Source: Lysobacter soli (lineage in GTDB: Bacteria > Pseudomonadota > Gammaproteobacteria > Xanthomonadales > Xanthomonadaceae). From it: a stretch of DNA of 64,000 nt. Under the pieces are notes generated by a model. It saw only the letters and a program-made list of their open reading frames with translations. It did not search any database and had not been told where the DNA came from. The stretch spans positions 62,001 through 126,000 of the forward strand of contig NZ_QTJR01000004.1 of the NCBI RefSeq assembly GCF_003382285.1, in the 5' to 3' direction. The position numbers were made by a program, and so were the translations under genes. This document shows positions 33,453 through 45,220 of this stretch, piece by piece (position 1 is the stretch's first letter; every line of letters starts with the position of its first letter).

Positions 33453-33736
33453 GCTCCTCACCTTCCAGACGGGCGTGCGCGCCGACGCAGGCGTGGCGCG
33501 TGGCGGTGTCATTGCCATGATGAACATCGGGCACCGCGTGCTGCTTCGGTAGTTCTACTGTTACTGCGTTGCGAGGCTGGATCAGCGCCCTTCCCTGCTT
33601 CATGTGCATGCCGCGCTGAACGCCGCCGTCGCCTTACCCCTCCACGAACGCGATTCCTTTACGAACCGGGAGCTGCGCTTGGTTGCAATCCGCGCCCCGG
33701 GCTGCGACAACGACGGACCTCCCACCGGGTTCGCCC

Positions 33737-34987
33737 ATGTCCTACGTCCGCTGCCTTCGTGGTATCGCCTCCGGCGTCGAGTACTCCGCCGATGTACCGA
33801 TGAACCTCGATCCCGTCGACGGCCGGCCGGTCGAGATGGTGCTCGACCTGGAGCGATTGGCGCGCGAGAAACCGGATGCCGCGTGGTATCGCCCGCAGCG
33901 TCGCGACCTGTGGCGCTTCGGCGCGTTGATGGCGCTCGATGCAGACGATCCGGTCGACGCCGCGCATCTGGTACCGCTCGGCGAAGGCGCGACGCCGCTG
34001 CTCGATTATTCGGCGCATCCGGTTGCGGCGAAGGCGGGCCTCGCGCTCCAGCTCAAGGACGAAGGCAAGGCGCATCCCGGCTACGGCGCGAACCCGACAC
34101 AGAGTTTCAAGGACCGCGGCATGGCGATGGTCGCCGCGCAGGCACGTCGCCTGGGCCTGACCAGGCTCGCGGTGCCGACGCAGGGCAACGCCGGCGATTC
34201 GCTGGTGCGTTATGCGCTGGAGGGCGGGCTGAGTGTCGTCGTCGCGATGCCGGACGACACGCCGATGCCGATCCTCGGCGGCGTCGCAGCGGCGGCCAAG
34301 CGCCATCCCGATCGCGTGACGCTCGAACTGGTCGGCCCGACCATCCGCGAGGCCGGCGCGTTCCTCAAGGAGCGCTACATCCCCGATGGCTGGTTTTCCG
34401 TCGCGACGTTCCAGGAACCGGGCTGGCGCATCGAGGGAAAGAAGTCGCTCGGCCTCGAACTCGCCGAGCCGTTGCCGGGCGAAACGCGCTGGTCGTTGCC
34501 CGACGCGGTGATCTATCCCACCGGCGGCGGCACCGGCGTGCTGGGAATGTGGAAGGCGTGGGACGAACTTGAGGCGCTGGGCATGATCGATTCGCGACGC
34601 CCGCGCATGCTGTGCGTGCAGAGCGCACGAACGGCGCCGCTCGTGCGTGCGTTCGACGCCGGCGCAGCGGACACGACCGTCGTCGAAGCAGGCGGGACGC
34701 TGGCCGTGGGCCTCAACGTGCCCGGCGGCGTCGGCCATTTCCGCGTGCTCGACATCATCAGGCAGAGCGGCGGCGCGGCGGTGGCGGTCGATGAGGCCGA
34801 CATCGAAACCGAACTCGCAGCGACGTGGCGCCGCACGCACGACTGGATCTCGCCGGAAGGCGCAGCGTGCCTCGCGGCGCTGCCGCAGTTGCTCGACCGC
34901 GGGCTCATCCACCGCGGCGAGCGCGTGGTCGCGGTGAACACCGGCTCCAGCGAGAAGTACCTGCCCACGCTGCGCCACCTGTTGTGA
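33737..34987 (+). CDS. Threonine synthase-like PLP enzyme
   Basis: A 416-residue type II-fold PLP enzyme. The PLP lysine is in NPTQSFKDRG, the phosphate-binding loop is PTGGGTGVLGMW, and PTQGNAGDSL is the asparagine loop. It makes threonine from O-phosphohomoserine if it is a true threonine synthase. It stands alone, not beside thrA or thrB, so it may be a second copy or a relative with another substrate. The start is preceded by a weak ribosome binding site; an earlier in-frame start near 33683 is less likely. Confidence 0.85.
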   Translation: MSYVRCLRGIASGVEYSADVPMNLDPVDGRPVEMVLDLERLAREKPDAAWYRPQRRDLWRFGALMALDADDPVDAAHLVPLGEGATPLLDYSAHPVAAKAGLALQLKDEGKAHPGYGANPTQSFKDRGMAMVAAQARRLGLTRLAVPTQGNAGDSLVRYALEGGLSVVVAMPDDTPMPILGGVAAAAKRHPDRVTLELVGPTIREAGAFLKERYIPDGWFSVATFQEPGWRIEGKKSLGLELAEPLPGETRWSLPDAVIYPTGGGTGVLGMWKAWDELEALGMIDSRRPRMLCVQSARTAPLVRAFDAGAADTTVVEAGGTLAVGLNVPGGVGHFRVLDIIRQSGGAAVAVDEADIETELAATWRRTHDWISPEGAACLAALPQLLDRGLIHRGERVVAVNTGSSEKYLPTLRHLL

Positions 34988-36121: not shown

Positions 36122-37528
36122 TCACCGCTCCGTGCTGCCGATGTCCGGCGCTGCGCCTTTCACCCGGGGGAAGCCGGGACCGCGCTGGTCGTACATGCGG
36201 TCGAACAGGTTGCTCCCCTGCCCCAACACGGGGCTGTCCGCCAGCGGCAGGTGCGTGGCGGAGTAGCCGCCGTTGTCGGCCAGCGGTGCAAGTCGTGGAT
36301 CAAGCGAGATGGTGTCGGCCGGCACCGGGACCAGCGGGTACTCGATGAGGTTGTGGGCGCCGACCACCGAACCGGTGGAGGCGCTGATGCCGTAGCCGAC
36401 CGGGCCTGCGACGCAGCTGTTGCGCGCCACGATGGTGCTTTCCAGATGCAGCGCGTCGGCCCGCAGTGCGCCGCGTCTATCGCACGGCCGCAATGGGTCC
36501 TCCCCCTCGCCGCCGTAGATGTTCGTGACCTCCGCGTTGTAGGCGATGGTGCTGTTGTAGATGTCGAGTCTGCCCTGTGCGTAGCCCGCGCTGTTGGTGT
36601 GCGCGCGGTTGTTCGAGATCGTACTGTCGACGATGAGGTGCTTTCCGGCCGGTTCCCCCTCACCGACGGCGAAACCGCCTCCCAAGCCGTAGAGCGTCCC
36701 CCTCCAGTCGTCGCGCACCATGTTGTTGGACAGGGTCGACTTGTTGATGATGAGGTCGGAAAGTCCGGTGAGCGAGCTGACGTACAGACCGCCCCCGATC
36801 GCCCCGGCGTGATTGCGATAAATGCGCGAGTACGTGACGCTGGCGCCGCCTTCCGCCATGACGCCGCCGCCGATGTAACCCTCGTTCTGGTAGACCTGCG
36901 CGTGGTACAGCGTCACACGCCCCTGCGCGTAGATTCCGCCGCCGAAACTGTTTTCGGTGGCGCTGTTGTCGAAAACCGCACTCCAGGTCACCTCGACGTT
37001 TCCCATCGCGCTGATCCCGCCACCCCAGGCAAGCGGTCCGTCGATGAAGCCGAACGCCTCCGCGCTGCATCCGTGTACCCACGCCTGGTGCAACGCGACG
37101 TTGCCTTCGGATCTGATGCAGCCGCCGTACTCGGATATCTGGTTTTCCTGGTCGGCGATGCGGCGCCCATTGGCCACTGACACGTACTCGATGCGCAAGG
37201 TCCCCGTGCCGTCGTGCAGAAACACGCGGTCTTTGCGATTGCCGTCGATGGTGAGTGCGTAACGGGTGCGGCCGCGGATCGTGAGATCCGCCTGTGGCAC
37301 CACGATCGAACCGCTGGTGAGCACGATGGCGCTGCAGCCCAGCGAGCGCAGGTCGATCACATCGCCGCTGGCGGCTGCGCCTATGGCGGCGCGCAGGCTT
37401 CCCGTGCCACTGTCACTGCAGTTGGAGACCAAGCGCATCGCCGCGTATGCCGCAGGCGTCGGGACAGCGACGCCCATCAAAATGATCAGCGTGATGGTGA
37501 ACGATGCGAAGTGCCCGATGCGAACCAT
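36122..37528 (-). CDS. Secreted right-handed beta-helix protein, second copy
   Basis: A 468-residue paralogue of the protein at 21392-22759. GGGAG precedes the start at 37528. A Sec signal ends near YAA, followed by the same opening MRLVSNCSDSGTGSLRAAIG. Rungs such as GGGISAMGNVEVTWSAVFDN and GGGVMAEGGASVTYSRIYRN form the helix. The C terminus has PLADNGGYSATHLP and the choice-of-anchor Q-like DIGSTER. It has more Cys residues than an average exported protein. Function unknown. Confidence 0.85.
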   Translation of the reverse strand: MVRIGHFASFTITLIILMGVAVPTPAAYAAMRLVSNCSDSGTGSLRAAIGAAASGDVIDLRSLGCSAIVLTSGSIVVPQADLTIRGRTRYALTIDGNRKDRVFLHDGTGTLRIEYVSVANGRRIADQENQISEYGGCIRSEGNVALHQAWVHGCSAEAFGFIDGPLAWGGGISAMGNVEVTWSAVFDNSATENSFGGGIYAQGRVTLYHAQVYQNEGYIGGGVMAEGGASVTYSRIYRNHAGAIGGGLYVSSLTGLSDLIINKSTLSNNMVRDDWRGTLYGLGGGFAVGEGEPAGKHLIVDSTISNNRAHTNSAGYAQGRLDIYNSTIAYNAEVTNIYGGEGEDPLRPCDRRGALRADALHLESTIVARNSCVAGPVGYGISASTGSVVGAHNLIEYPLVPVPADTISLDPRLAPLADNGGYSATHLPLADSPVLGQGSNLFDRMYDQRGPGFPRVKGAAPDIGSTER

Positions 37529-37786
37529 GGCGGTGCTCCCAAGATGCACCCCGGCCCGGGGCGCGCGCCTCGTTCGCTGTTTACGCCGACGTCGTACGCG
37601 CGGAGTGAAGTCCGTTTGCCTGTAGCCCACGCCGTGACGTATTCAGATGAGGACGTGATTCAGCTTCCGTGAGCCGCGCGACGAACGGTCGTGCGGGATG
37701 CGGACTCAGCGGGAGGTGCGGTAACCACCCTGACTCGAATGCGACGGACGTAGAAGCACGTGTCGTCCCGGAGCACGGGGAACGAA

Positions 37787-38611: not shown

Positions 38612-39085
38612 CGCGTTGGACGTCCTGCTCGATTCCGACTCCGTACGACCGCGGTTCCAGCATCCGCTTTGCTCCAGGCGGTCCTTTTGCGCACCGCGCC
38701 GGAACTCCTGCTTGTTCAGCAGCGCCAACAGGCAAAGCGCCACGAAGTGCGACGGTGCAATCCATGCGAACTTCAACATCGCGTGCACCGTACGGCGCCC
38801 CCCCCGCCGAGCCGCCAGATTAACGGACATCCTCCGGCACGTCATGATCGCTCCTGTCGGATCGCATCCTGTCATTGCGGGGTTGCGATCCGCCGGATAA
38901 CAGATTGGTCCCCGCCAAGCAGACCTTGAGGCTGATCCACCCTGTCATTTCCGCTACGGACCAATCGCCACACTAGCAGCCCCGCCGTCTGTCCGAACGT
39001 CCGAACCGCCCCTAACGGCCAGGCGTCATCAGCGAGTCCTGGGTTCCGCGCTATCGATCGACAGGCGTTGGGTCGCGAACGGCGC
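38612..39085. other. Intergenic region containing a degraded copy of the local repeat
   Basis: No gene is evident in this 474-bp stretch. It is upstream of the SMI1/KNR4-like lipoprotein and contains the first, degenerate member of the hairpin-doublet repeat family at 38947-39030. Confidence 0.55.
38947..39030 (+). repeat. Hairpin-doublet repeat, copy R1 (degenerate)
   Basis: It keeps the central CTAGCAGCCCCGCC block, GAACGTCCG, CTAACGGCCAGG and the terminal CAT in the family order, but both stems are eroded. It lies 56 bases past the stop of the membrane-protein gene at 39086-39439. Confidence 0.55.
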
Positions 39086-39439
39086 TTACGAGTCTTCGCT
39101 GTTTGCGCCTGCGGATTCGGGCCGGATCAGCGCGACGATTCCCCCTGCCACTGCAAAGATCCCGCCGAGGGTGAAGAACAGCACGCGCGCCGAGAACCCC
39201 ACCGCATCCGCCGCCTTCTCGCAATCGTGTATGCGGGGAGCTCGACCGCAAGTGACGCGCCCGGTCTGGATGGCCTCGTCGGCGTAAGCCAGCAGGACGA
39301 TGCCGAGCGCCACGAATCCCACGAACCCCAACAACCGTTTGGCCGGGGTCATGGTCACCTCGACACGCGTGCGCAACATGTAGAAGACCGACGCGGGCAC
39401 GCCGAAGACAATCAGGACCACGAACAAACCACTATCCAT
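39086..39439 (-). CDS. Small membrane protein, unknown
   Basis: A 117-residue protein with three hydrophobic segments: LFVVLIVFGVPASVFYML, LLGFVGFVALGIVLLAYA and VLFFTLGGIFAVAGGIVALI. Two Cys residues lie in the loop between the second and third. I recognise no family. It is the first of the small genes in the repeat-delimited array. Confidence 0.65.
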   Translation of the reverse strand: MDSGLFVVLIVFGVPASVFYMLRTRVEVTMTPAKRLLGFVGFVALGIVLLAYADEAIQTGRVTCGRAPRIHDCEKAADAVGFSARVLFFTLGGIFAVAGGIVALIRPESAGANSEDS

Positions 39440-39489
39440 GCGAGCAGAGCTCCATCGCGCGTGGCATGCGGCCAGAGGCCGTGCCGGGT

Positions 39490-39552
39490 GGAAGCGGACT
39501 TTAGCACCGCTGACCGTTCATTCCATTGGACGCTATCGGCCAAGAGCGGATA
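39490..39552 (+). repeat. Hairpin-doublet repeat, copy R2 (degenerate)
   Basis: It contains GAAGCGGACTTTAGCA, a shortened centre, then GGACGCTATCGGCCAAGAGCGGA, matching the end of the first stem and the second hairpin of the family. It ends nine bases from the stop of the Ax21-like gene. Confidence 0.65.
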
Positions 39553-39560
39553 TCACGAGA

Positions 39561-40211
39561 TCAGAAGCTGGCACGAAGCCCCACACGATAGCGTCGCAAC
39601 TCGTTCGACTCTTCCCATTCGGCCACCACGCCCCATGTACCGGTAAAGCGGTACTGCGCTCCAAGCGCTCCGATGAAGTGGTCCCGAAAATCGTCGCTGT
39701 CGCGATACCCGACCTTGATCCAGCCCTCGATGCGCTCGCTCGCTCCGCGCAGTCCGACTGTCGCTGAAGTGCCGTCGAGGTCGCGCCATGAAAGATGGGT
39801 GGCTTCCCCACCGTCCACCGTGAAGGTAATGTCCCGATCGATGTTGAAGTAGGTCAGCTCACCTACGAAATCGAGCCTCTCGCCCATCGGCGCGTGGACT
39901 CCCAGACCTGCTTCTGTCGCACGCTGCTCCATCTTCGTGTGCGTCTGGAACGGATCCAAAGACCCCAGGACAACGGTGTGGTGCGACGTGTCATCACGCT
40001 CGGCGTAGCTGCCAAAGACAAAAAGCGAGGGGGTCAGCGCGTAAGAGCCGCGTAGGTACGCCCCACTCGGGTCCTGTGCGCCGAGCGTCTCAGCGCTCTG
40101 ATCGACGCGGTCAAAGCCTCCCTCTACATAGGTGTACGTCAGCCCGCCGGCCACCGCTCCCGACATCGGGATAACCGCCAGCAAAGCCACGCACGCAAGC
40201 GCCTTCTCCAT
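39561..40211 (-). CDS. Ax21-like outer-membrane beta-barrel protein
   Basis: A 216-residue protein with a Sec signal (MEKALACVALLAVIPMSGAV, cleavage near AVA). The mature N terminus GGLTYTYVEGGFDRVDQSA resembles the Ax21/Omp family of Xanthomonadaceae. Alternating strands such as AYLRGSYALTPSLFVFGSYA and the C-terminal RRYRVGLRASF with a terminal Phe mark a small barrel. The once-claimed quorum-sensing role of Ax21 is not assumed here. It lies between repeat copies R2 and R3. Confidence 0.82.
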   Translation of the reverse strand: MEKALACVALLAVIPMSGAVAGGLTYTYVEGGFDRVDQSAETLGAQDPSGAYLRGSYALTPSLFVFGSYAERDDTSHHTVVLGSLDPFQTHTKMEQRATEAGLGVHAPMGERLDFVGELTYFNIDRDITFTVDGGEATHLSWRDLDGTSATVGLRGASERIEGWIKVGYRDSDDFRDHFIGALGAQYRFTGTWGVVAEWEESNELRRYRVGLRASF

Positions 40212-40288
40212 TGCACTCCCCCTGTCCTTGTTGTCGACGTGAACGCAGACGCATCACGGTTATCCGCCTTCCCCCGGACCTGCCGGCA

Positions 40289-40378
40289 GATGTCGGCCAA
40301 GCGGGAAGCAGACATCAGCAGCCCGGCCGCCGGCCATTCCACGCGAACGTCTGCTGTCGCCCGGACGTTCGGACATCT
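40289..40378 (+). repeat. Hairpin-doublet repeat, copy R3
   Basis: It shows the family order with changes: AGCAGACATCAGCAGCCCGG, then GCGAACGTCTGCTGTCG, then CGGACATCT. Stem 1 is poor, the centre good. It lies 39 bases past the stop of the following minus-strand gene. Confidence 0.75.
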
Positions 40379-40417
40379 AGCACATGCCCTTGTGCGTGGA
40401 TACAACTCGCAGCCCGC

Positions 40418-40963
40418 TCACACCAAGGGCCTCGTCCGGGACGGCGTGTCTGGAAGAGCGGCTCCGCACGTCGGGCAGAACTTTGCGTCCCGGAGACCTC
40501 TGTGGCCTCTCGGGCACGTCGCGCCGCGCAGCATCCACGGTCGGCGATACGCCGTGAGCAGGACGCCGAAGCCGGCGGCGTAGAAGAGCATCCAGTGACC
40601 GGAGGAGCCGCGAAGTGTGGCCGGCGCAAGTGCGTCGCTTTGCTGCTTGTGCCCGGCCTCACCATTGAATGCGGAGAAAAAGTTGAGAAATGCGTAGGCG
40701 AACAAGACCAGCAGGAATCCGCGGAACCAGGCCGGGCAGCCGGAAAGCAGTGGCCCCCAGCTCATGAAGCCGCGCTGACCTTGGCTGATGCGAATCGCAA
40801 GAAAGACAACCGGAAACCAGATGACGAAGACCCCCACGTGCAACGCGAACACCGCATTGCCACCAGGGGGCACCACGCCGGTGAGCGCAACGATATGCAC
40901 CAGCGCGCTGCAGAGAAATCCGATTGCTGAGACTGCCAACAAGGGAACCAGGAGTGCGGCCAT
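40418..40963 (-). CDS. Four-helix membrane protein with C-terminal zinc ribbon
   Basis: A 181-residue protein. The start at 40963 has GGGGAGGG just upstream. Hydrophobic segments are ALLVPLLAVSAIGFLCSALV, AVFALHVGVFVIWFPVVFLA, FRGFLLVLFAYAFLNFFSAF and WMLFYAAGFGVLLTAY. The C terminus carries a zinc-ribbon-like CPRGHRGLRDAKFCPTCGAA. I recognise no named family. The long frame beyond 40963 is Arg-rich and not credible. Confidence 0.7.
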   Translation of the reverse strand: MAALLVPLLAVSAIGFLCSALVHIVALTGVVPPGGNAVFALHVGVFVIWFPVVFLAIRISQGQRGFMSWGPLLSGCPAWFRGFLLVLFAYAFLNFFSAFNGEAGHKQQSDALAPATLRGSSGHWMLFYAAGFGVLLTAYRRPWMLRGATCPRGHRGLRDAKFCPTCGAALPDTPSRTRPLV

Positions 40964-41034
40964 CGACCCTCCCCGGTCAGATGCGCTGAAGCCAAGTCTA
41001 TTCAAGGAGCGACATTGCCTGGAGCGCCTTGTAC

Positions 41035-41850
41035 TTACAGAGTGCCGCCAATAGCGAGATGGAATGGAATTCCAACAAGCGTCAGCATCAATACCCACAC
41101 AGCGCTTGCGAGCGGTGCGATCAGGATACGGCCGATGACACGCGATGCACCTGCCTGCTCGCCGAACAACGGCAAACCTGCCCACAGAAATCCAACGCAC
41201 ACGGCGAGCAGCAAGGCGCTGGCGATGAATATGTTTGCGCGGCCGGCGACATTCAGTGCAAACGCCACGTATGCGTAGACCAGCGCTCCCCAGAGCAGCA
41301 AGGCGCCGATTCCCACCATGAGAAAGCGCGCCCTGGGTGCGCTCGATCCAATACTCACAGCCAAAGGGGGCCTCCTGAAGCAAAGGCAATACGCACAGCG
41401 CGGGAACCCCGATGTCCGCTTTGGCTCGTAAGCGGACATTAGCAGCCCGGCAGCCGGACGCCCCAGCCGAACGTCCGCTATCGGCCAGGAGCGGACATCT
41501 GGCATCTGCTGAGAGAAGAATCCCTCGAACACGAGGTCGAATCGCTCCCTCGCTTCCAGCAGTCCTTCAGCGTCGATGCCATCCATCACATAGATGTCCT
41601 TCGGATCGTAATGCGCGACAAAGAGCGAGACTGTCGCGCTGAAAAGACGGAAAACGCGCCAACGCAGCTCCGCGTCCGAGTCGGCGGCAGCTGCAAGCTG
41701 AAACAGCGCCCACTCCACCTTCCAGTATTCGTCCTGCGACCAGGTCGCATCTTCGTACAGCCGCGACCTGAACGAGGTCGTTTCGAACTCACCGGACGCG
41801 GGGTGGTTCTTCGAAATTATCGAGCGGGCGTCCATTGCATCCGACTGCAT
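41035..41850 (-). CDS. Composite frame: acidic protein, repeat-encoded linker, membrane protein
   Basis: One open frame of 271 codons joins three parts. Residues 1 to about 115 are an acidic, soluble-looking domain (DEYWKVEWALFQLAAAADSD). Residues about 116-146 are encoded by repeat copy R4 (WPIADVRLGRPAAGLLMSA). The rest is a membrane protein with three helices (MVGIGALLLWGALVYAYVAF and two more). A separate start for the last part is plausible: TTG at 41364 lies six bases after a strong AGGAGG. I think two genes have been joined by the repeat removing the first stop codon. Whether one or two proteins are made is unclear. Confidence 0.5.
   Translation of the reverse strand: MQSDAMDARSIISKNHPASGEFETTSFRSRLYEDATWSQDEYWKVEWALFQLAAAADSDAELRWRVFRLFSATVSLFVAHYDPKDIYVMDGIDAEGLLEARERFDLVFEGFFSQQMPDVRSWPIADVRLGRPAAGLLMSAYEPKRTSGFPRCAYCLCFRRPPLAVSIGSSAPRARFLMVGIGALLLWGALVYAYVAFALNVAGRANIFIASALLLAVCVGFLWAGLPLFGEQAGASRVIGRILIAPLASAVWVLMLTLVGIPFHLAIGGTL
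41411..41499 (+). repeat. Hairpin-doublet repeat, copy R4
   Basis: A nearly intact copy. Hairpin 1 is 41414-41437 (GTCCGCTTTGG to AAGCGGAC), the centre is ATTAGCAGCCCGG, and hairpin 2 is 41473-41496 (GTCCGCTATCGGCCAG to GCGGAC). It lies inside an open reading frame. Confidence 0.9.
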
Positions 41851-41890
41851 CTTGAGATGGCTCCGATCTATCCAACGCGACTACGAGCAG

Positions 41891-41978
41891 ATGTACGTTT
41901 TGGGTCGAAAGCGGACATTAGCGGCGCGGCCGTCAACAGTTCTGTCCGAACGTCTGCTATCGGCCAGAAGCGGACATT
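41891..41978 (+). repeat. Hairpin-doublet repeat, copy R5
   Basis: An intact-length copy with TTGGGTCGAAAGCGGACATT, a diverged centre (AGCGGCGCGGCC), and CGAACGTCTGCTATCGGCC to AGCGGACAT. It ends 14 bases before the stop of the minus-strand gene at 41992. Confidence 0.9.
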
Positions 41979-41991
41979 TCCTGCTTGGCGA

Positions 41992-42327
41992 TCAGCGGCT
42001 GACCGTGATGGGGTTGAGCTTGTCGCCTTGCTTGTAGAACGCAGGCAACCCGGCAGCACGAGCGATGATCGCGACATCGACAATGTCTTGAACGGTGGCA
42101 TCGTCGCCGTACAGCAGGACGACCGAGGTGACGCCCTCAGACGCCTTGGCTGCACGAATCGCATCGCCCATACGGTCAGGGGTGTAGTTCCGTCCTCGCC
42201 ACGAGAACTCGTCGCCTGGCATCGCTGAAATCTCGGCGGGAACGTCGCCTGCGTATGTCGCCGGCTTCGGGACAGATGCACACGCAGCCAAGAAAGCCGA
42301 AGCCGCGACAATCGCTATCCGTTTCAT
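41992..42327 (-). CDS. Small lipoprotein, unknown
   Basis: A 111-residue lipoprotein with signal MKRIAIVAASAFLAAC, lipobox Cys at 16, and GGGAGGG before the start. The mature part (GDEFSWRGRNYTPDRMGDAI, then SVVLLYGDDATVQDIVDVAI) looks like a small mixed alpha/beta domain of the ExbD/TolR-like kind, in which a sensor residue region VVLLYGDDATVQD is typical; this assignment is tentative. It lies between copies R5 and R6. Confidence 0.7.
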   Translation of the reverse strand: MKRIAIVAASAFLAACASVPKPATYAGDVPAEISAMPGDEFSWRGRNYTPDRMGDAIRAAKASEGVTSVVLLYGDDATVQDIVDVAIIARAAGLPAFYKQGDKLNPITVSR

Positions 42328-42371
42328 GATTCCCTCCCCTGTCGCCCAAGATGCCCGAAGCGAGATCTTCA

Positions 42372-42457
42372 GTGTCCGCTTTGGGTCGGAAGCGGACCTT
42401 AGCAGCCCGGCTGCCGGCCGTCCCGGGCGAACGTCCGCTATCGGCCAGAAGCGGACA
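42372..42457 (+). repeat. Hairpin-doublet repeat, copy R6
   Basis: A well-preserved copy: GTGTCCGCTTTGGGTCG, centre TTAGCAGCCCGGCTGCCGG, then GAACGTCCGCTATCGGCCAG and AAGCGGAC. Stem 1 has one mismatch. Confidence 0.92.
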
Positions 42458-42490
42458 ATTCGAATGCTCCTGGCGGCAGAGGTCACAAAC

Positions 42491-42979
42491 TCAAGTTGCT
42501 GACCAGGTTTCACCGCGCTCGATGGTGTCGTCAGGTTGGCGATCTTCGAGTCGAACCTCTGGCGGTGCCCCAGAAAAGACCTGTAGGACCAGCTCCTCCG
42601 TCCACACTAGCCACTCGGAGAACTCTCCTCGAAACTCGTCGATGGCGGTTAGCGAGTTCCCCGCGAAGTCCCGGAACGAAGATGCCGTTACGCGTCGAAG
42701 AAACCGGCCTTCCTCTATTTCAAGCTTGGGGTCCTCGGCATCGTAGCCTTCGGCGTACGTCAGGACGGCCCTGACATCGTTGAAGACAATCGTGGCGCAC
42801 CTGCTAGAACGCTCAACGGTGACCGGAAAGTAAGGGCCTAGCGTTTGATCTCCAATCTGGACGGGTAGCCGCTCAGTCCCCTTTATCCCTTCCGCAAGGC
42901 GAATGACGAGTGAGCCATACGGGCCTTGCTGGTAAGACTCCAAGAACCAGGTGTGTGCGCTGTTGAGGAGTTTATTCAT
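42491..42979 (-). CDS. Acidic hypothetical protein
   Basis: A 162-residue, acidic, soluble-looking protein. I do not recognise it. Notable segments: MNKLLNSAHTWFLESYQQGP at the start, GYDAEDPKLEIEEGRFLRRV in the middle and GEFSEWLVWTEELVLQVF near the end. The ribosome binding site is weak. GC is clearly lower than in flanking housekeeping genes. It lies between copies R6 and R7 with no partner gene. Confidence 0.65.
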   Translation of the reverse strand: MNKLLNSAHTWFLESYQQGPYGSLVIRLAEGIKGTERLPVQIGDQTLGPYFPVTVERSSRCATIVFNDVRAVLTYAEGYDAEDPKLEIEEGRFLRRVTASSFRDFAGNSLTAIDEFRGEFSEWLVWTEELVLQVFSGAPPEVRLEDRQPDDTIERGETWSAT

Positions 42980-43012
42980 GGGGCCAAGCTATCAAATCGG
43001 CCGCCCAAACGA

Positions 43013-43098
43013 ATGTCCGCTTTGGGTCGAAAGCGGACATTAGCATCCGATCCAGCCTCGACCTGCTCCCAGTGTCCGCTAACGGCCAGAAGCGGACG
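43013..43098 (+). repeat. Hairpin-doublet repeat, copy R7
   Basis: Hairpin 1 is perfect (GTCCGCTTT with AAAGCGGAC), the centre is diverged (TTAGCATCCGATCC), and hairpin 2 is GTCCGCTAACGGCC to AAGCGGAC. It ends seven bases before the stop of the next minus-strand gene. Confidence 0.92.
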
Positions 43099-43104
43099 CT
43101 GGCT

Positions 43105-43548
43105 TCAAAGACGGGTGACCATTCCACCGCCGCGCTCGAACTGTTCCCGGGATTCCGTTGAAGCCTTCTCCGCAAAGGAACCCGGAGTGAAGATGTCGCG
43201 GTAGAGCAGTCGTGGTGAGCGATACGTTTTCAGAAAGTCCTGGAACGAAACCCCGGCTGCAGGACGCTCATCTCGCTCGACGGATACCAGCCAAGGAACA
43301 CGCAGGTCGTGTCTGCCGAGAATGGCGTTAACACGAGCCTCCACGCCGATGTACGGCGGTTCCCCTCCCCCCGCTGCTTGAACTTCATCGACAGTGAACG
43401 TCGTCACGACGACCTCGGGTCGCTCAACACTGGTCAGGGAAACCCAGCCGCTGGTAGCCATGTCTGTGTCTGCGGTGAACTGAACCGCAGGGAATAGCTT
43501 GCCGTTTGACTGAGATTGCAGCCAGATGATGGTGTCGTAGATCGCCAT
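43105..43548 (-). CDS. Hypothetical protein
   Basis: A 147-residue protein of unknown family. The N-terminal half is beta-rich (YDTIIWLQSQSNGKLFPAVQ, RPEVVVTTFTVDEV) and the C-terminal half carries RHDLRVPWLVSVERDERP and QDFLKTYRSPRLLYRDIFTP. GAGGAAGG lies right before the start. No membrane segment or signal. It is flanked by R7 and R8. Confidence 0.65.
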   Translation of the reverse strand: MAIYDTIIWLQSQSNGKLFPAVQFTADTDMATSGWVSLTSVERPEVVVTTFTVDEVQAAGGGEPPYIGVEARVNAILGRHDLRVPWLVSVERDERPAAGVSFQDFLKTYRSPRLLYRDIFTPGSFAEKASTESREQFERGGGMVTRL

Positions 43549-43577
43549 CCTTCCTCATTCGCGCTCGGTAGCCTGAG

Positions 43578-43661
43578 CGTCCGCTTTGGGTCGAAAGCGG
43601 ACATTAGCAGCCCGGCTGCCGGCCGTCCCGCCGAACGTCTGCTATCGGCCAGAAGCGGACT
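43578..43661 (+). repeat. Hairpin-doublet repeat, copy R8
   Basis: Well preserved: GTCCGCTTTGGGTCG with AAAGCGGAC, centre ATTAGCAGCCCGGCTGCCGG, then GAACGTCTGCTATCGGCCAG and AAGCGGAC. It is 146 bases past the stop of the next gene, the largest gap in the series. Confidence 0.92.
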
Positions 43662-43807
43662 TCGCGAGCGCCGATGAATCCGGACTATGCCCTGGACTCG
43701 GCTACCTGTTAGGTAGCTGCGCACTCGATGCCTCGCAACCGAAGAGCCCTGCAGAGCGAATCAAGCCTAGCCTCGGAGTCGTCATCCGCTACGAAGTAGC
43801 GGCCATC

Positions 43808-44248
43808 CTAAAGTGAGCGTAATCCGGAATCGAACGCAAACACTGGAGTGTCGTAGTTGCGAATCGAACCCTCCAGGTAATAGTTGAAGTCGCTTTCGCT
43901 CCGCCCGTTGGAATACACACACTGCAGGCGGGAGAGCCATCTACCGAACGCCAGGTTGACCTTCTGCAAGGACGGGAACCGCCGGAGCGGTGTGGACAAG
44001 AAGTGCGCCTCACCTACAGTCCAAAGCTCGCCGCGCCTAGCGCGCGGGAGGAAAATCGTGACTATGGGCGAAGAGCGCTCGTCGATGTTTCCGCTCCCCT
44101 GATATGCAAGCGGCCCTTGGGCGGAGAAGTAGAGAACGATCCCTCTATCCGTACGCGCCTCGACTGGAGCTTCGTCTAGCGAGCGGAACCACTCAAGAAC
44201 TTCGGAAGGCTGGGACGGGTCTGCGATGAATCTATGAGTAGTACCCAT
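43808..44248 (-). CDS. Hypothetical protein
   Basis: A 146-residue protein, family not recognised. The ATG at 44248 avoids translating a repeat; the frame is open to an ATG at 44326 that lies in copy R9 and would add 26 residues. Segments: THRFIADPSQPSEVLEWFRS, RSSPIVTIFLPRARRGELWT, EAHFLSTPLRRFPSLQKVNL and a C-terminal YYLEGSIRNYDTPVFAF. No signal or membrane helix. It resembles the single-domain soluble proteins of immunity clusters, but I cannot name a fold. Confidence 0.62.
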   Translation of the reverse strand: MGTTHRFIADPSQPSEVLEWFRSLDEAPVEARTDRGIVLYFSAQGPLAYQGSGNIDERSSPIVTIFLPRARRGELWTVGEAHFLSTPLRRFPSLQKVNLAFGRWLSRLQCVYSNGRSESDFNYYLEGSIRNYDTPVFAFDSGLRSL

Positions 44249-44297
44249 GCTCTCAACGATCTCGGCTGCTTTAGTAAAGCTTACCGCGCCCCCCTGT

Positions 44298-44328
44298 GGA
44301 CGTTCGCTTCGGGCGGTAGCGGACATTC
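44298..44328 (+). repeat. Hairpin-doublet repeat, copy R9 (half)
   Basis: Only one hairpin remains, GGACGTTCGCTTCGGGCGG to TAGCGGACATT. The stop codon of the small membrane gene at 44327 overlaps its right end. Confidence 0.55.
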
Positions 44329-44566
44329 ACCTAGGGGGGCGGCGGCGTTGGAACAGCCAGACCGTCAGGCCGACTAGGAATAGCGCGCAGACACCAAGCG
44401 CATAGGAGAACAACAGGAGTTGAGTGCCAACGCGACAGTACTGTTCGGCGTGCTTGAGCGAGGTGGGGCCACACGCGCCGAACCGAAGGGAAGCGGTGGA
44501 GACTGCTGATAGGAAAACGTAGGCCGCGGCAAGAGCGGTGGCGACTGATGCGGCGCCGAACAACAA
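44327..44566 (-). CDS. Small two-helix membrane protein
   Basis: A 79-residue frame with a TTG start and two membrane segments (FGAASVATALAAAYVFLSAV and LLLFSYALGVCALFLVGLTV), ending in the basic tail FQRRRPPR. Four Cys residues are present. No ribosome binding site is seen, so the start is uncertain and the gene itself is tentative. Confidence 0.45.
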   Translation of the reverse strand: MLFGAASVATALAAAYVFLSAVSTASLRFGACGPTSLKHAEQYCRVGTQLLLFSYALGVCALFLVGLTVWLFQRRRPPR

Positions 44567-44625
44567 AAGTCGGAATGCGGAACGTCATTCTGGCGACTCC
44601 AATTGAGATCAACCTTGCATGCACC

Positions 44626-44651
44626 GTCCGCTATCGGCCAGAAGCGGACAT
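44626..44651 (+). repeat. Hairpin-doublet repeat, copy R10 (half)
   Basis: Only the second hairpin is present, GTCCGCTATCGGCCAG to AAGCGGACAT, in the same orientation as the other copies. It lies 38 bases past the stop of the next gene. Confidence 0.85.
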
Positions 44652-44688
44652 CGGCCGCCGAGGTCGTCACGTACCCAGCAAGGAATGG

Positions 44689-45048
44689 TCACCGTACGAA
44701 GTCGGCGAACTCCCTATACACCCCATCCCCAATGACACATTCCTTTGCCCCTGTCGATTCGTCGATGGCGGTGAGAGTGAAGGTCAATCCACTTTCTCCT
44801 TCCTCCAGGTACTTCAGGAGGTACGAGAACGACGAGCGCACGGCATAGTCAGCCACTGCCATGGCTTTCTCCTGCTCTTCGACGCTTAGCCCGCGCAGCA
44901 CTTCATGTATGGGAAGGCTGTACCGAGTCTCGCGCAGAAACTTGTCTGGTTCGCTCAGCCAGGCGCGCAGTACTTCTGGGCCAGAGTCCCGCGCATCCAG
45001 GAGGATGGTCTTGAACCTGTCGGTGATCTCTTCTGCTTCGTTAGCCAT
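44689..45048 (-). CDS. Acidic hypothetical protein
   Basis: A 119-residue acidic protein. The start at 45048 is preceded by GGTGGTGAG; the longer frame to 45204 is repeat sequence. It begins MANEAEEITDRFKTILLDAR and is helical for about 80 residues, followed by GLTFTLTAIDESTGAKE. I recognise no family. It is the last small gene before glmS. Confidence 0.65.
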   Translation of the reverse strand: MANEAEEITDRFKTILLDARDSGPEVLRAWLSEPDKFLRETRYSLPIHEVLRGLSVEEQEKAMAVADYAVRSSFSYLLKYLEEGESGLTFTLTAIDESTGAKECVIGDGVYREFADFVR

Positions 45049-45120
45049 CTCACCACCGTCCATATGATGACTTCGCCAGATAGTTCCGTCCGTTCTCTTC
45101 CGTTGCCTCGGTCGGCACGA

Positions 45121-45158
45121 AATGTCCGCTTTGGGTCGAAAGCGGACATTAACATCCC
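45121..45158 (+). repeat. Hairpin-doublet repeat, copy R11 (half)
   Basis: Only the first hairpin and the ATTAACATCCCG start of the centre remain. The stem GTCCGCTTT with AAAGCGGAC is perfect. It abuts the glmS terminator. Confidence 0.85.
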
Positions 45159-45169
45159 GCCAAAAAGAA

Positions 45170-45195
45170 AACGGCCCTCGCAAAGGAGGGCCGTT
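45170..45195 (-). terminator. Rho-independent terminator of glmS
   Basis: A perfect 10-bp stem (AACGGCCCTC with GAGGGCCGTT) followed on the minus strand by TTCTTTTTGG, 25 bases after the glmS stop. Confidence 0.92.
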
Positions 45196-45220
45196 CCCAA
45201 GCACCGCATTCGGTCCGGCG

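Follow-up and report, generated by a model that had tools for sequence, protein, structure and literature searches.

Gene cassettes framed by two different 28-bp near-palindromes in Lysobacter: a putative chromosomal exchange system whose recombinase remains unidentified

Next to glmS, the 64-kb window (the whole stretch of Lysobacter soli DNA analyzed here) carries an array of small genes separated by short hairpins. A position-weight scan found 14 hairpins in the window, 13 of them within 38,900-45,200 and all 13 of these on the minus strand, whereas the same scan returned none in dinucleotide shuffles (n = 200) of the reported interval and none in reversed controls from 27 loci. The hairpins are of two kinds, hp1 and hp2; a unit reads hp2-gene-hp1, and a complete site is the junction of two 28-bp near-palindromes, hp1 followed by hp2. 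From the glmS side to the distal end, the array contains the following features:

45121..45154, minus strand: hp2 half-site opening the array, 66 bases past the glmS stop codon, with no preceding hp1 (position-weight score 61.8)
44689..45063, minus strand: cassette gene 1, an orphan of 124 aa; ORF between hp2 45121 and hp1 44623, no Pfam match
44623..44652, minus strand: hp1 closing cassette 1, with no hp2 partner after it (score 46.9)
44327..44566, minus strand: small ORF of 79 aa, no Pfam match
44298..44327, minus strand: decayed hairpin remnant overlapping the adjoining stop codon (weak nhmmer match, E 0.058 on this strand)
43808..44326, minus strand: cassette gene, orphan of 172 aa, no Pfam match; the real start is probably further in
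43576..43663, minus strand: complete site from the hairpin scan (hp1 43634-43663, 24 nt linker, hp2 43576-43609)
43105..43548, minus strand: cassette gene, 147 aa, with a DNA match of ~80% to an array stretch of genome G004 (L049 10570-11244)
43012..43100, minus strand: complete site, 25 nt linker
42491..42979, minus strand: cassette gene, orphan of 162 aa (ORF; Pfam scan)
42371..42459, minus strand: complete site, 25 nt linker; best covariance-model match in its own genome, the model having been built from this site and five other window sites
41992..42327, minus strand: cassette gene, 111 aa; unit also in G004 (97%) and G008 (92%), beside other neighbours
41890..41978, minus strand: complete site, 25 nt linker
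41440..41850, minus strand: cassette ORF entering its site; sub-threshold match to the immunity protein Imm41 (E 9.7e-05, 22.8 bits against a cut-off of 26.9)
41411..41499, minus strand: complete site, 25 nt linker
41035..41364, minus strand: cassette gene, 109 aa, no Pfam match
40418..40969, minus strand: gene of 183 aa, matching a zinc ribbon below threshold and not separated from the preceding gene by a site
about 40287..40379, minus strand: decayed complete site (nhmmer E 1.5e-18, the copy itself being one of six in the profile)
39561..40211, minus strand: outer-membrane beta-barrel gene, 216 aa (PF13505, E 1.1e-09)
39489..39556, minus strand: decayed site, hp1 39525-39554 plus the beginning of hp2 (nhmmer, scan)
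39086..39439, minus strand: gene of 117 aa (ORF)
38970..39025, minus strand: final site remnant at the distal end of the array (weak nhmmer match, E 0.003)

An earlier note on this DNA had described about ten small genes, of lower GC than their surroundings, separated by eleven copies of one repeat in uniform orientation. The array, its orientation and the gene count all stand, as does the composition (0.59-0.64 GC per kb in 39,001-45,000 versus 0.63-0.68 in the adjoining 2 kb on each side), and the ORF said to be fused with a repeat does extend into its own site. Eleven sites or remnants are indeed present (five well-kept complete sites, one decayed complete site, two lone halves, and three weak remnants), but each complete copy is the junction of two different near-palindromes. 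What had been taken for a single element at the 3′ end of each gene is actually the end of one unit (hp1) joined to the start of the next (hp2). An Rfam search of the interval gave nothing above threshold, only two chance matches far below it.

The same anatomy recurs across 55 stretches from 11 genomes, which together contain 274 hp1, 235 hp2, 162 complete sites, and 179 units; no stretch from G005 entered these statistics, and loci L060-L089 were left out, having been inspected only partly. Alignment and per-position conservation resolve both palindromes into an 11-6-11 layout with nearly alike arms and different cores, hp2 being ATGTCCGCTTT-CGACCC-AAAGCGGACAT (core CGACCC) and hp1 ATGTCCGCTTC-TGGCCG-ATAGCGGACAT (core TGGCCG), with the limits of the 6-bp core set by varying bases on both sides. 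Given the near-symmetry of the arms, only the core (TGGCCG versus the reverse complement GGGTCG) hints that the two sites lie inversely around the gene. The linker measures 24-26 nt in 142 of the 162 complete sites, the start codon lies a median of 25.5 nt past hp2, and the stop codon a median of 11 nt ahead of hp1. The longest ORF runs in the sense of the array in 138 of 155 units, the other 24 of the 179 falling outside the counted size range of 150-900 nt. On contigs C25, C12, C24, and C23 of the window's own genome, hp2 alone opens the array and hp1 alone closes it; the same genome has two single units, each hp2-gene-hp1, and, on C10 and C23, isolated complete sites without a cassette array. 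Comparison of these loci establishes, as far as sequence can, a unit that mostly carries one gene, in one direction. The encoded proteins are mostly orphans (97 singletons among 138), and a PADLOC scan of 122 of them yielded one weak match; the remaining 16, mostly relatives of retained proteins and one of doubtful frame, were submitted to neither Pfam nor PADLOC. The labels "P2-like phage genes" and "cation-efflux gene" are our own reading of the sequence, without a profile match. Spurious peptides such as MSALGRKRT and VRFWPIADI are said to recur in alphaproteobacterial annotations and support nothing here.

The site model matched all 12 Lysobacter genomes searched, with 16-84 matches in ten of them and 1 and 7 in G005 and G006, respectively; owing to the near-symmetry of the site, these counts include some sites twice, once per strand. 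The array itself is absent beside glmS in all 11 relatives. Within stretches of 15.8-16.0 kb (glmS and ~14 kb downstream), 10 of the 11 lack any element, and the remaining one, G008, has three hairpins at a distance of 4-5 kb from glmS. The interval thus differs among relatives, and the same genes in the same order throughout, which the earlier note would have counted against a cassette system, were not seen across the genus. The full site had no match at E 0.01 among PLSDB plasmids or INPHARED phages; in viral contigs the exact hp2 pattern was not found, and the hp1 pattern occurred in five stretches. Other bacteria contain single, dispersed hp1 copies.

Gain, loss, or swapping of single units with junctions inside the repeats, the outcome that would favour a cassette system, was observed between G004 and G011, which are 97-99.7% identical around one array. 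Retained sites there enclose different content, and the breaks fall within hp1 or hp2. At hp1, the last mismatch directly precedes TGGCCG in two junctions and lies at position 4 in a third, while in the fourth the first mismatch comes two bases past the core; a further difference (L049/L116) has its break elsewhere than at a site, and G004 carries one complete site, without a gene, that G011 lacks. In all, 33 homologous unit pairs were found (for example, G000/G002 at 99% and G004/G010 at 96%), and single units, some from the window among them, recur in other arrays beside other neighbours, the identity reaching 99% at most. G001 carries two units at two loci each (98% and 97%), and G000 and G001 share a two-unit block at least 99.9% identical, the upstream flank of which changes at the start of hp2. 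Comparison alone accordingly shows that near-identical single units occupy different loci and occur in more than one species, and that content switches within hp1 and hp2. For the single unit on contig C10 of G000, no clean empty site was found in relatives, because the right side is rearranged; the left flank is conserved in several of them to about 36-43 nt before hp2. A search with a whole array of G004 was swamped by repeats and not used.

To locate the breaks, alleles were pooled over 23 upstream and 22 downstream pairs, leaving out the 6 of the 33 pairs that fall below 85% identity and pairs with a matching outer flank. In the pool, alleles between the gene and the core accompany the gene, and matches on the far side of the core do not exceed chance: for hp2, the match is 0.87 versus a background of 0.64 at positions 22-23 and 0.57 versus 0.54 at position 15; for hp1, it is 0.75 versus 0.55 at positions 10-11 and 0.57 versus 0.68 at positions 18-19. 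Downstream linkers match at background level (0.40 versus 0.40), upstream linkers show some excess identity (0.56 versus 0.44), and in some single pairs the entire site is identical. When each family is represented by one pair, placing a common breakpoint beyond the core costs ~12 log units on both sides. Letting breakpoints vary nevertheless gives a better fit than a single fixed one (log-likelihood -182.9 versus -195.5 for hp2 and -179.3 versus -190.3 for hp1), and for hp1 the alternative that nothing of it is carried lies just 1.5 log units below the best. Bootstraps are unstable, placing the hp2 breakpoint at 16-17 in 1140 of 2000 replicates but at 33 in 522, and the hp1 breakpoint at 18 in 819 of 2000 but at 0 in 707. 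Not all pairs break at an identical point, and resolution at hp1 is weak.

No recombinase common to the 12 genomes emerged among the matches to PF00589, PF00239, and PF01797, except Xer-type proteins, with two matches in each genome. Integrase genes near arrays (G001, G003, G004, G010, G011) were considered and set aside; they differ from one another except for a near-identical pair in G004 and G011. In the window's own genome, none of the five PF00589 proteins, all scanned, passes the integron integrase cut-off. Only G005 and G006, the genomes poorest in sites, yielded an integron integrase; for the other nine, this was judged from the PF00589 list and three scanned proteins, not from every protein. 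Y1 transposase was absent from all 12 genomes at E 1e-5, with a control positive in 5 of 14 genomes, including Escherichia coli.

We somewhat favour the explanation that these arrays constitute a chromosomal gene-cassette system in which exchange would take place at two heterospecific sites through an unidentified recombinase acting in trans. Recombination would pair like sites (hp1 with hp1, hp2 with hp2), allowing two arrays to trade a gene without moving the linker block between cassettes; units may also be added or lost. Action in trans is inferred because the arrays as a rule encode no recombinase, and present activity has not been shown. A tyrosine recombinase would fit the layout best, and a serine recombinase is not excluded. 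The suggestion that this is an uncharacterized way of collecting genes therefore holds for the pattern of unit exchange and recurrence, but no recombinase can be named.

Homologous recombination between the repeats is the main rival, although we regard it as rather unlikely. Here the repeats would be islands of homology that hairpins, spread earlier by an unknown route, had provided, and RecA would swap the genes after DNA uptake or between arrays. In its favour, arrays do share sites of ~90 nt, the fit improves when breakpoints may vary, breakpoints in hp1 are hard to resolve, certain upstream linkers resemble each other, and the enzyme has not been found. If breaks fell anywhere in the 90 nt, however, the downstream linker and the right hp1 arm should often move along with the gene, which the pooled matches just given (0.40 versus 0.40 and 0.57 versus 0.68) do not bear out, and RecA leaves unexplained why one gene lies between each pair of unlike sites, at near-fixed spacing and in a common orientation. 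Spread of REP/BIME-type palindromes by a RAYT (Y1) transposase, with the palindromes lying between genes by chance, would account for paired, intergenic repeats downstream of stop codons and for dispersed hp1 singles in other bacteria. We find it very improbable, given the lack of a Y1 transposase in all 12 genomes, the lack of a GTAG end, and the genes that loci have in common together with the sites; RAYT as the mobilizer is contradicted here.

A degenerate integron, with attC changed beyond recognition and the integrase acting in trans or lost, appears clearly unlikely. The R and L boxes of attC read RYYYAAC and GTTRRRY, and attC-like ends, judged by the attC motif, stand directly ahead of hp1 in several units and in Pseudoxanthomonas. 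The integron stretches of G005 and G006 (72 kb) contain homologs of 4 of the 116 cassette families, against none in 159 kb of control DNA. Of three window sites tested, one folds as a single strand far better than shuffles (z -4.3 and -5.0 for the two strands), the other two showing no clear excess (z -1.0 and -1.9). The motif search for attC ends, though, hit 6 of 179 units, little above the 3 and 4 in controls; a fuzzy search, run without a control, gave 11 units before hp1, several of them weak and two being the same unit in G004 and G011. No attC boxes occur in the consensus of 179 hp1 and 179 hp2 sites, Rfam reports nothing above threshold, array ends are split between hp1 and hp2 rather than inside the R′ box, integrase is confined to the two genomes with 1 and 7 site matches versus 16-84 in the other ten, and the integron stretches fetched from these two lack any hp site. 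Xer-mediated modules as in Acinetobacter, recombined by the host XerC and XerD, share the 28-bp 11-6-11 layout with its 6-bp core and the framing of genes by two sites; two Xer-type recombinases exist in 12 of 12 genomes, and the distance from array end to dif is ~0.4 kb in G008 and G010. This reading has hardly any claim on belief, since the dif of the genus (GCATAA-TGCATA-TTATGT.AA.T in four of seven genomes) is by eye unlike the hp arms (ATGTCCGCTT), which are themselves nearly equal and thus offer no separate XerC and XerD arm.

Integrons are the textbook means by which bacteria stockpile single genes. Gain, loss, and swapping of single genes with breaks inside the palindromes make the present arrays look like a gene-collecting system separate from known integrons; ten of the twelve genomes searched in the genus have many such non-integron sites, framing mostly orphan genes. 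It is possible, though we put it forward only tentatively, that they represent, after integrons and dif modules, a third type of cassette platform in bacteria, one of natural recombinase-mediated exchange at two heterospecific 28-bp sites with the trans-acting enzyme unknown, which would have largely replaced the integron in most of the genus and absorbed integron cassettes whole, including attC. If so, the system would be widespread, given related hp1 sites in Pseudomonas, Pseudoxanthomonas, and Betaproteobacteria. The arrays expose a reservoir of orphan genes, supply precise sites for tracking down the enzyme, and suggest that an exchange reaction otherwise known from engineering has a natural counterpart; the sites being short and defined, the reaction is directly testable. 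The four core strings occurred in no paper searched (subscription papers being mostly outside coverage), and none of the papers retrieved on Lysobacter cassettes, CALIN, dif modules, or dif-like sites describes such a system, judged by title and the start of the abstract.

Among known systems, sedentary chromosomal integrons and CALINs are alike in having one-direction arrays of mostly orphan single-gene cassettes with a structured site in each gap, and a few cassette gene families are common to both; they differ from the arrays described here, which lack an attC consensus, frame each unit with two different sites, and number several per genome; in the window's own genome no integrase was found, and sites are scarcest in the two genomes where an integron is confirmed. 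As in integrons, single cassettes are inserted and deleted here, judged from genome comparison without experiment. REP/BIME elements and CGTC REPs are likewise short palindromes, often paired and mostly downstream of genes, and CGTC REPs also lack a known dedicated enzyme (PMC3733652). The CGTC REP stems presented there start with AT and have loops of 4-5 nt, whereas the present arrays have CGTC or TGTC followed by CGCTT, and genes are shared together with the repeats. Closest in layout are the Acinetobacter pdif modules, in which genes are likewise framed by 28-bp 11-6-11 sites, the recombinase is encoded elsewhere by the host, and one module replaces another by way of the sites on each side, whose 6-bp spacers are identical (PMC13141974). 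The comparative pattern fits such exchange between identical-spacer sites, again without experiment; unlike pdif modules, the Lysobacter arrays are chromosomal, with uniform gene orientation, arms unlike dif, two fixed cores (CGACCC on the left, TGGCCG on the right), and sites coupled at ~25 nt.

The window array comprises about ten small minus-strand genes running from glmS to the distal flank, in a genome of 3.95 Mb on 27 contigs.

38947-45158, minus strand: array of small genes between glmS and the distal flank
41992-42327, within the array: gene of a unit that recurs in two other genomes
33683-34987 and 36122-37630: genes of the far flank of the array

The repeat family that the earlier note had recognized in this interval was borne out, with 13 hairpins on a single strand against none in 200 shuffles. 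A repeat does stand between most neighbouring genes, but the notion of one structured element per gap had to be amended: the 90-nt repeat is the joint of two sites, namely two near-palindromes of 28 bp, hp1 (ATGTCCGCTTC-TGGCCG-ATAGCGGACAT), which ends one unit, and hp2 (ATGTCCGCTTT-CGACCC-AAAGCGGACAT), which begins the next. Within this genome, the arrays of contigs C25, C12, C24, and C23 open on a lone hp2 and close on a lone hp1, and two units that stand singly, on C23 and C10, read hp2-gene-hp1; the unit, or cassette, is therefore hp2-gene-hp1. Isolated complete sites (hp1-linker-hp2) are also present on C23 and C10. Across 55 stretches from 11 genomes, we counted 162 joints, with a linker of variable sequence measuring 24-26 nt in 142 of them. 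A preceding hp1 is missing from 57 of the 179 units and a following hp2 from 75, numbers that are upper limits for true array ends because decay also yields halves. Among 179 copies per site, collected by weight matrix and hence biased towards conserved copies, each of the six core bases is conserved at 96-98%, as are most arm bases, whereas those adjoining the core are more variable (hp2: position 15, T 0.68/C 0.31, and position 22, A 0.70/G 0.26; hp1: position 10, T 0.65/C 0.28, and position 18, A 0.78/T 0.16). The two sites of L. lactosilyticus, L. dokdonensis, and L. gilvus can nearly adjoin, with a linker of few bases instead of 25 (fetched loci L063, 6382-6447; L067, 7103-7166; L078, reverse complement, 89-155). 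Another short inverted motif (GTATAACCGGACCC...GGGTCCG or the reverse) recurs beside hp sites (unit starts in L121 and L140; after 2514 in L051), and one gammaproteobacterial genome (G216) holds five copies of a palindrome variant whose core is TGGCAC or TGGCAT.

The longest open reading frame runs in the array direction in 138 of 155 units of 150-900 nt. In these 138, the start codon lies a median of 25.5 nt past hp2 and the stop 11 nt ahead of hp1, 31 stops being inside or past hp1. The median protein length is 131.5 aa and the mean GC 0.588; by BLASTP, the proteins fall into 116 groups, 97 of them singletons. Pfam searches of 122 cassette proteins returned eight families, four of them DUFs, in at most 11 proteins; one ORF of the window gave a sub-threshold match to Imm41.

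When the glmS interval was compared across 11 relatives, as the earlier note had proposed, the array was absent there in all 11; three hairpins in G008 lie 4-5 kb from glmS. The far flank of the window array also adjoins arrays in G001 and L. changpingensis CM-3-T8 (G007), in both of which glmS is elsewhere; thus, the far side of the locus is older and the glmS side was rearranged. The DNA downstream of glmS differs within the genus, being 99.6% identical between Lysobacter sp. MMG2 (G004) and G011 and in parts common to G001, L. arvi UC (G002), G007, and G008 (L035-L045). Individual units recur between genomes. The one holding the gene at 41992-42327 has counterparts of 97% identity in G004 and of 92% in G008, with differing neighbours; between the window's genome and L. 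arvi UC, a 576-nt unit shows 99% identity; one unit is 96% identical between G004 and G010, whose GlmS proteins are 95% and 89% identical to the window's; and a two-unit block shared with G001 is at least 99.9% identical, versus 93.6% for the glmS stretches of this pair. Within G001, two units each occupy two places (98% and 97% identity).

The predicted gain, loss, or swap of single units was indeed found in one array common to G004 and G011 (glmS stretches 99.6% identical), where blocks are 97.2-99.7% identical and cassettes differ between retained sites. The first cassette is different, with hp2 and hp1 retained; two cassettes of G004 stand in place of one other in G011; one further joint is preceded by a different cassette; and a geneless complete site occurs in G004 but not in G011. 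In the hp1 copies at these junctions, the last mismatch on the exchanged side falls directly before TGGCCG at two junctions and at position 4 at a third; at a fourth, the first mismatch lies two bases past the core. In a fifth difference (L049/L116), the break is not at a site.

The allele comparison covered 27 pairs of units with 85% identity or more, at sites whose outer context differs (23 upstream and 22 downstream); matched unrelated units from the same genomes served as background. In the pooled data, alleles lying between the core and the gene move together with the gene (hp2 positions 22-23, 0.87 versus 0.64 background; hp1 positions 10-11, 0.75 versus 0.55), and those beyond it do not exceed background (hp2 position 15, 0.57 versus 0.54; hp1 positions 18-19, 0.57 versus 0.68). 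Identity of the downstream linker is at background (0.40 versus 0.40), that of the upstream linker somewhat above it (0.56 versus 0.44). When each family was reduced to one pair (17 and 16), the common breakpoint that fitted best was position 16-22 in hp2 and position 18 or earlier in hp1. Shifting it past the core is about 12 log units worse, and a break at the left edge of hp1 only 1.5 log units worse than the best; bootstraps were unstable, and giving each pair its own breakpoint improved the fit by 11-13 log units. Overall, the results argue against common carry-over beyond the core; that every break falls at one single base is not shown.

Judged from sequence alone, unit anatomy and breaks are compatible with exchange between like sites of two kinds, and we lean towards site-specific exchange at two heterospecific sites by an unnamed enzyme acting in trans. 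Homologous recombination between the repeats, to which we give a rather low probability, remains the serious rival, and both processes may act together.

With a covariance model of six window sites, every one of the 12 genomes of the genus gave matches at E 0.1 or better; their number ranged from 1 to 84 (some sites counted on both strands) and was lowest in G005 (1) and G006 (7). Among the matches listed, many cluster on one strand, a few hundred bases apart. Outside the genus, within the same family or order, four weak matches were obtained in 3 of 18 genomes. In the GTDB collection, 30 stretches hold the exact hp1 24-mer: those of Lysobacter or Lysobacteraceae bacterium P (n = 20), Pseudoxanthomonas (n = 4), Pseudomonas (n = 3), and MAGs (n = 3; Oxalicibacterium, Pseudomonadales, Betaproteobacteria). 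When up to three mismatches were allowed, counting by eye gave 35 genomes with the 24-mer among 398 of the phylum, the own one included, versus seven with the reversed control. In Betaproteobacteria, single genes stand between an hp2-like and an hp1 site (L069, 3700-4400; L075, 1079-2560), one resembling by eye a Lysobacter cassette protein and one reading as a cation-efflux gene. An hp array adjoins genes that read as P2-like prophage genes, judged by eye without profile search, in G039 (L056, L058), a 19.7 kb IMG/VR contig.

A true integron integrase (TIGR02249, E about 1e-142) is encoded in both G005 and G006, adjoined by at least 31 (L185 with L173) and at least 25 (L187 with L174) attC motifs, respectively; the fewest hp sites are thus found in the two genomes with a confirmed integron. 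No hp sites were found in their fetched integron stretches. An attC-like end stands directly ahead of hp1 in several units, for example, in G004 (L121), G010 (L143, L140), and G001 (L127), and in Pseudoxanthomonas too. The L121 cassette shares 66% protein identity with a G006 integron cassette, and in 72 kb of integron DNA from G005 and G006, homologs turned up for 4 of the 116 cassette families; 159 kb of control DNA gave none. From these ends and shared families, integron cassettes have probably entered the hp arrays. Ends abutting hp1 (L121, reverse complement 148-790; L143, 5672; L140, 5404; L127, 7186; L050/L123; L065, 195; L071, reverse complement 4062) mostly read GTTGGC(G) followed at once by hp1, as if integron cassettes had inserted next to it.

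Every one of the 12 genomes encodes two strong Xer-type tyrosine recombinases, to which NCBIfam gives the names XerC and XerD in the window's genome. The set of other tyrosine recombinases varies by genome, no further one common to all 12 being evident; serine recombinases occur in six and Y1 transposases in none of the 12. The window's genome also has an ORF for a small serine recombinase (PF00239) next to a complete hp1-hp2 site that stands alone (L189, 1181-1889). In 4 of 7 genomes the chromosomal dif was located; its arms, by eye, are unlike those of hp sites. The hp arrays stop about 0.4-0.5 kb from dif in G008 (L177, dif at about 1513) and G010 (L178, dif at about 1819); in G008, they flank dif on both sides, both pointing towards it, and in G001, the nearest known array is about 18 kb away.

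In the favoured site-specific exchange, like would be traded for like at two kinds of site, so that the gene would be swapped and the rest left in place. In the Acinetobacter literature, dif modules are described as being replaced in this way through two site pairs whose spacers are identical (PMC13141974). Because hp sites are distinct from dif sites and the enzyme is unknown, we do not file the hp cassettes as dif modules, although the working mode, replacement through two site pairs, would be alike.
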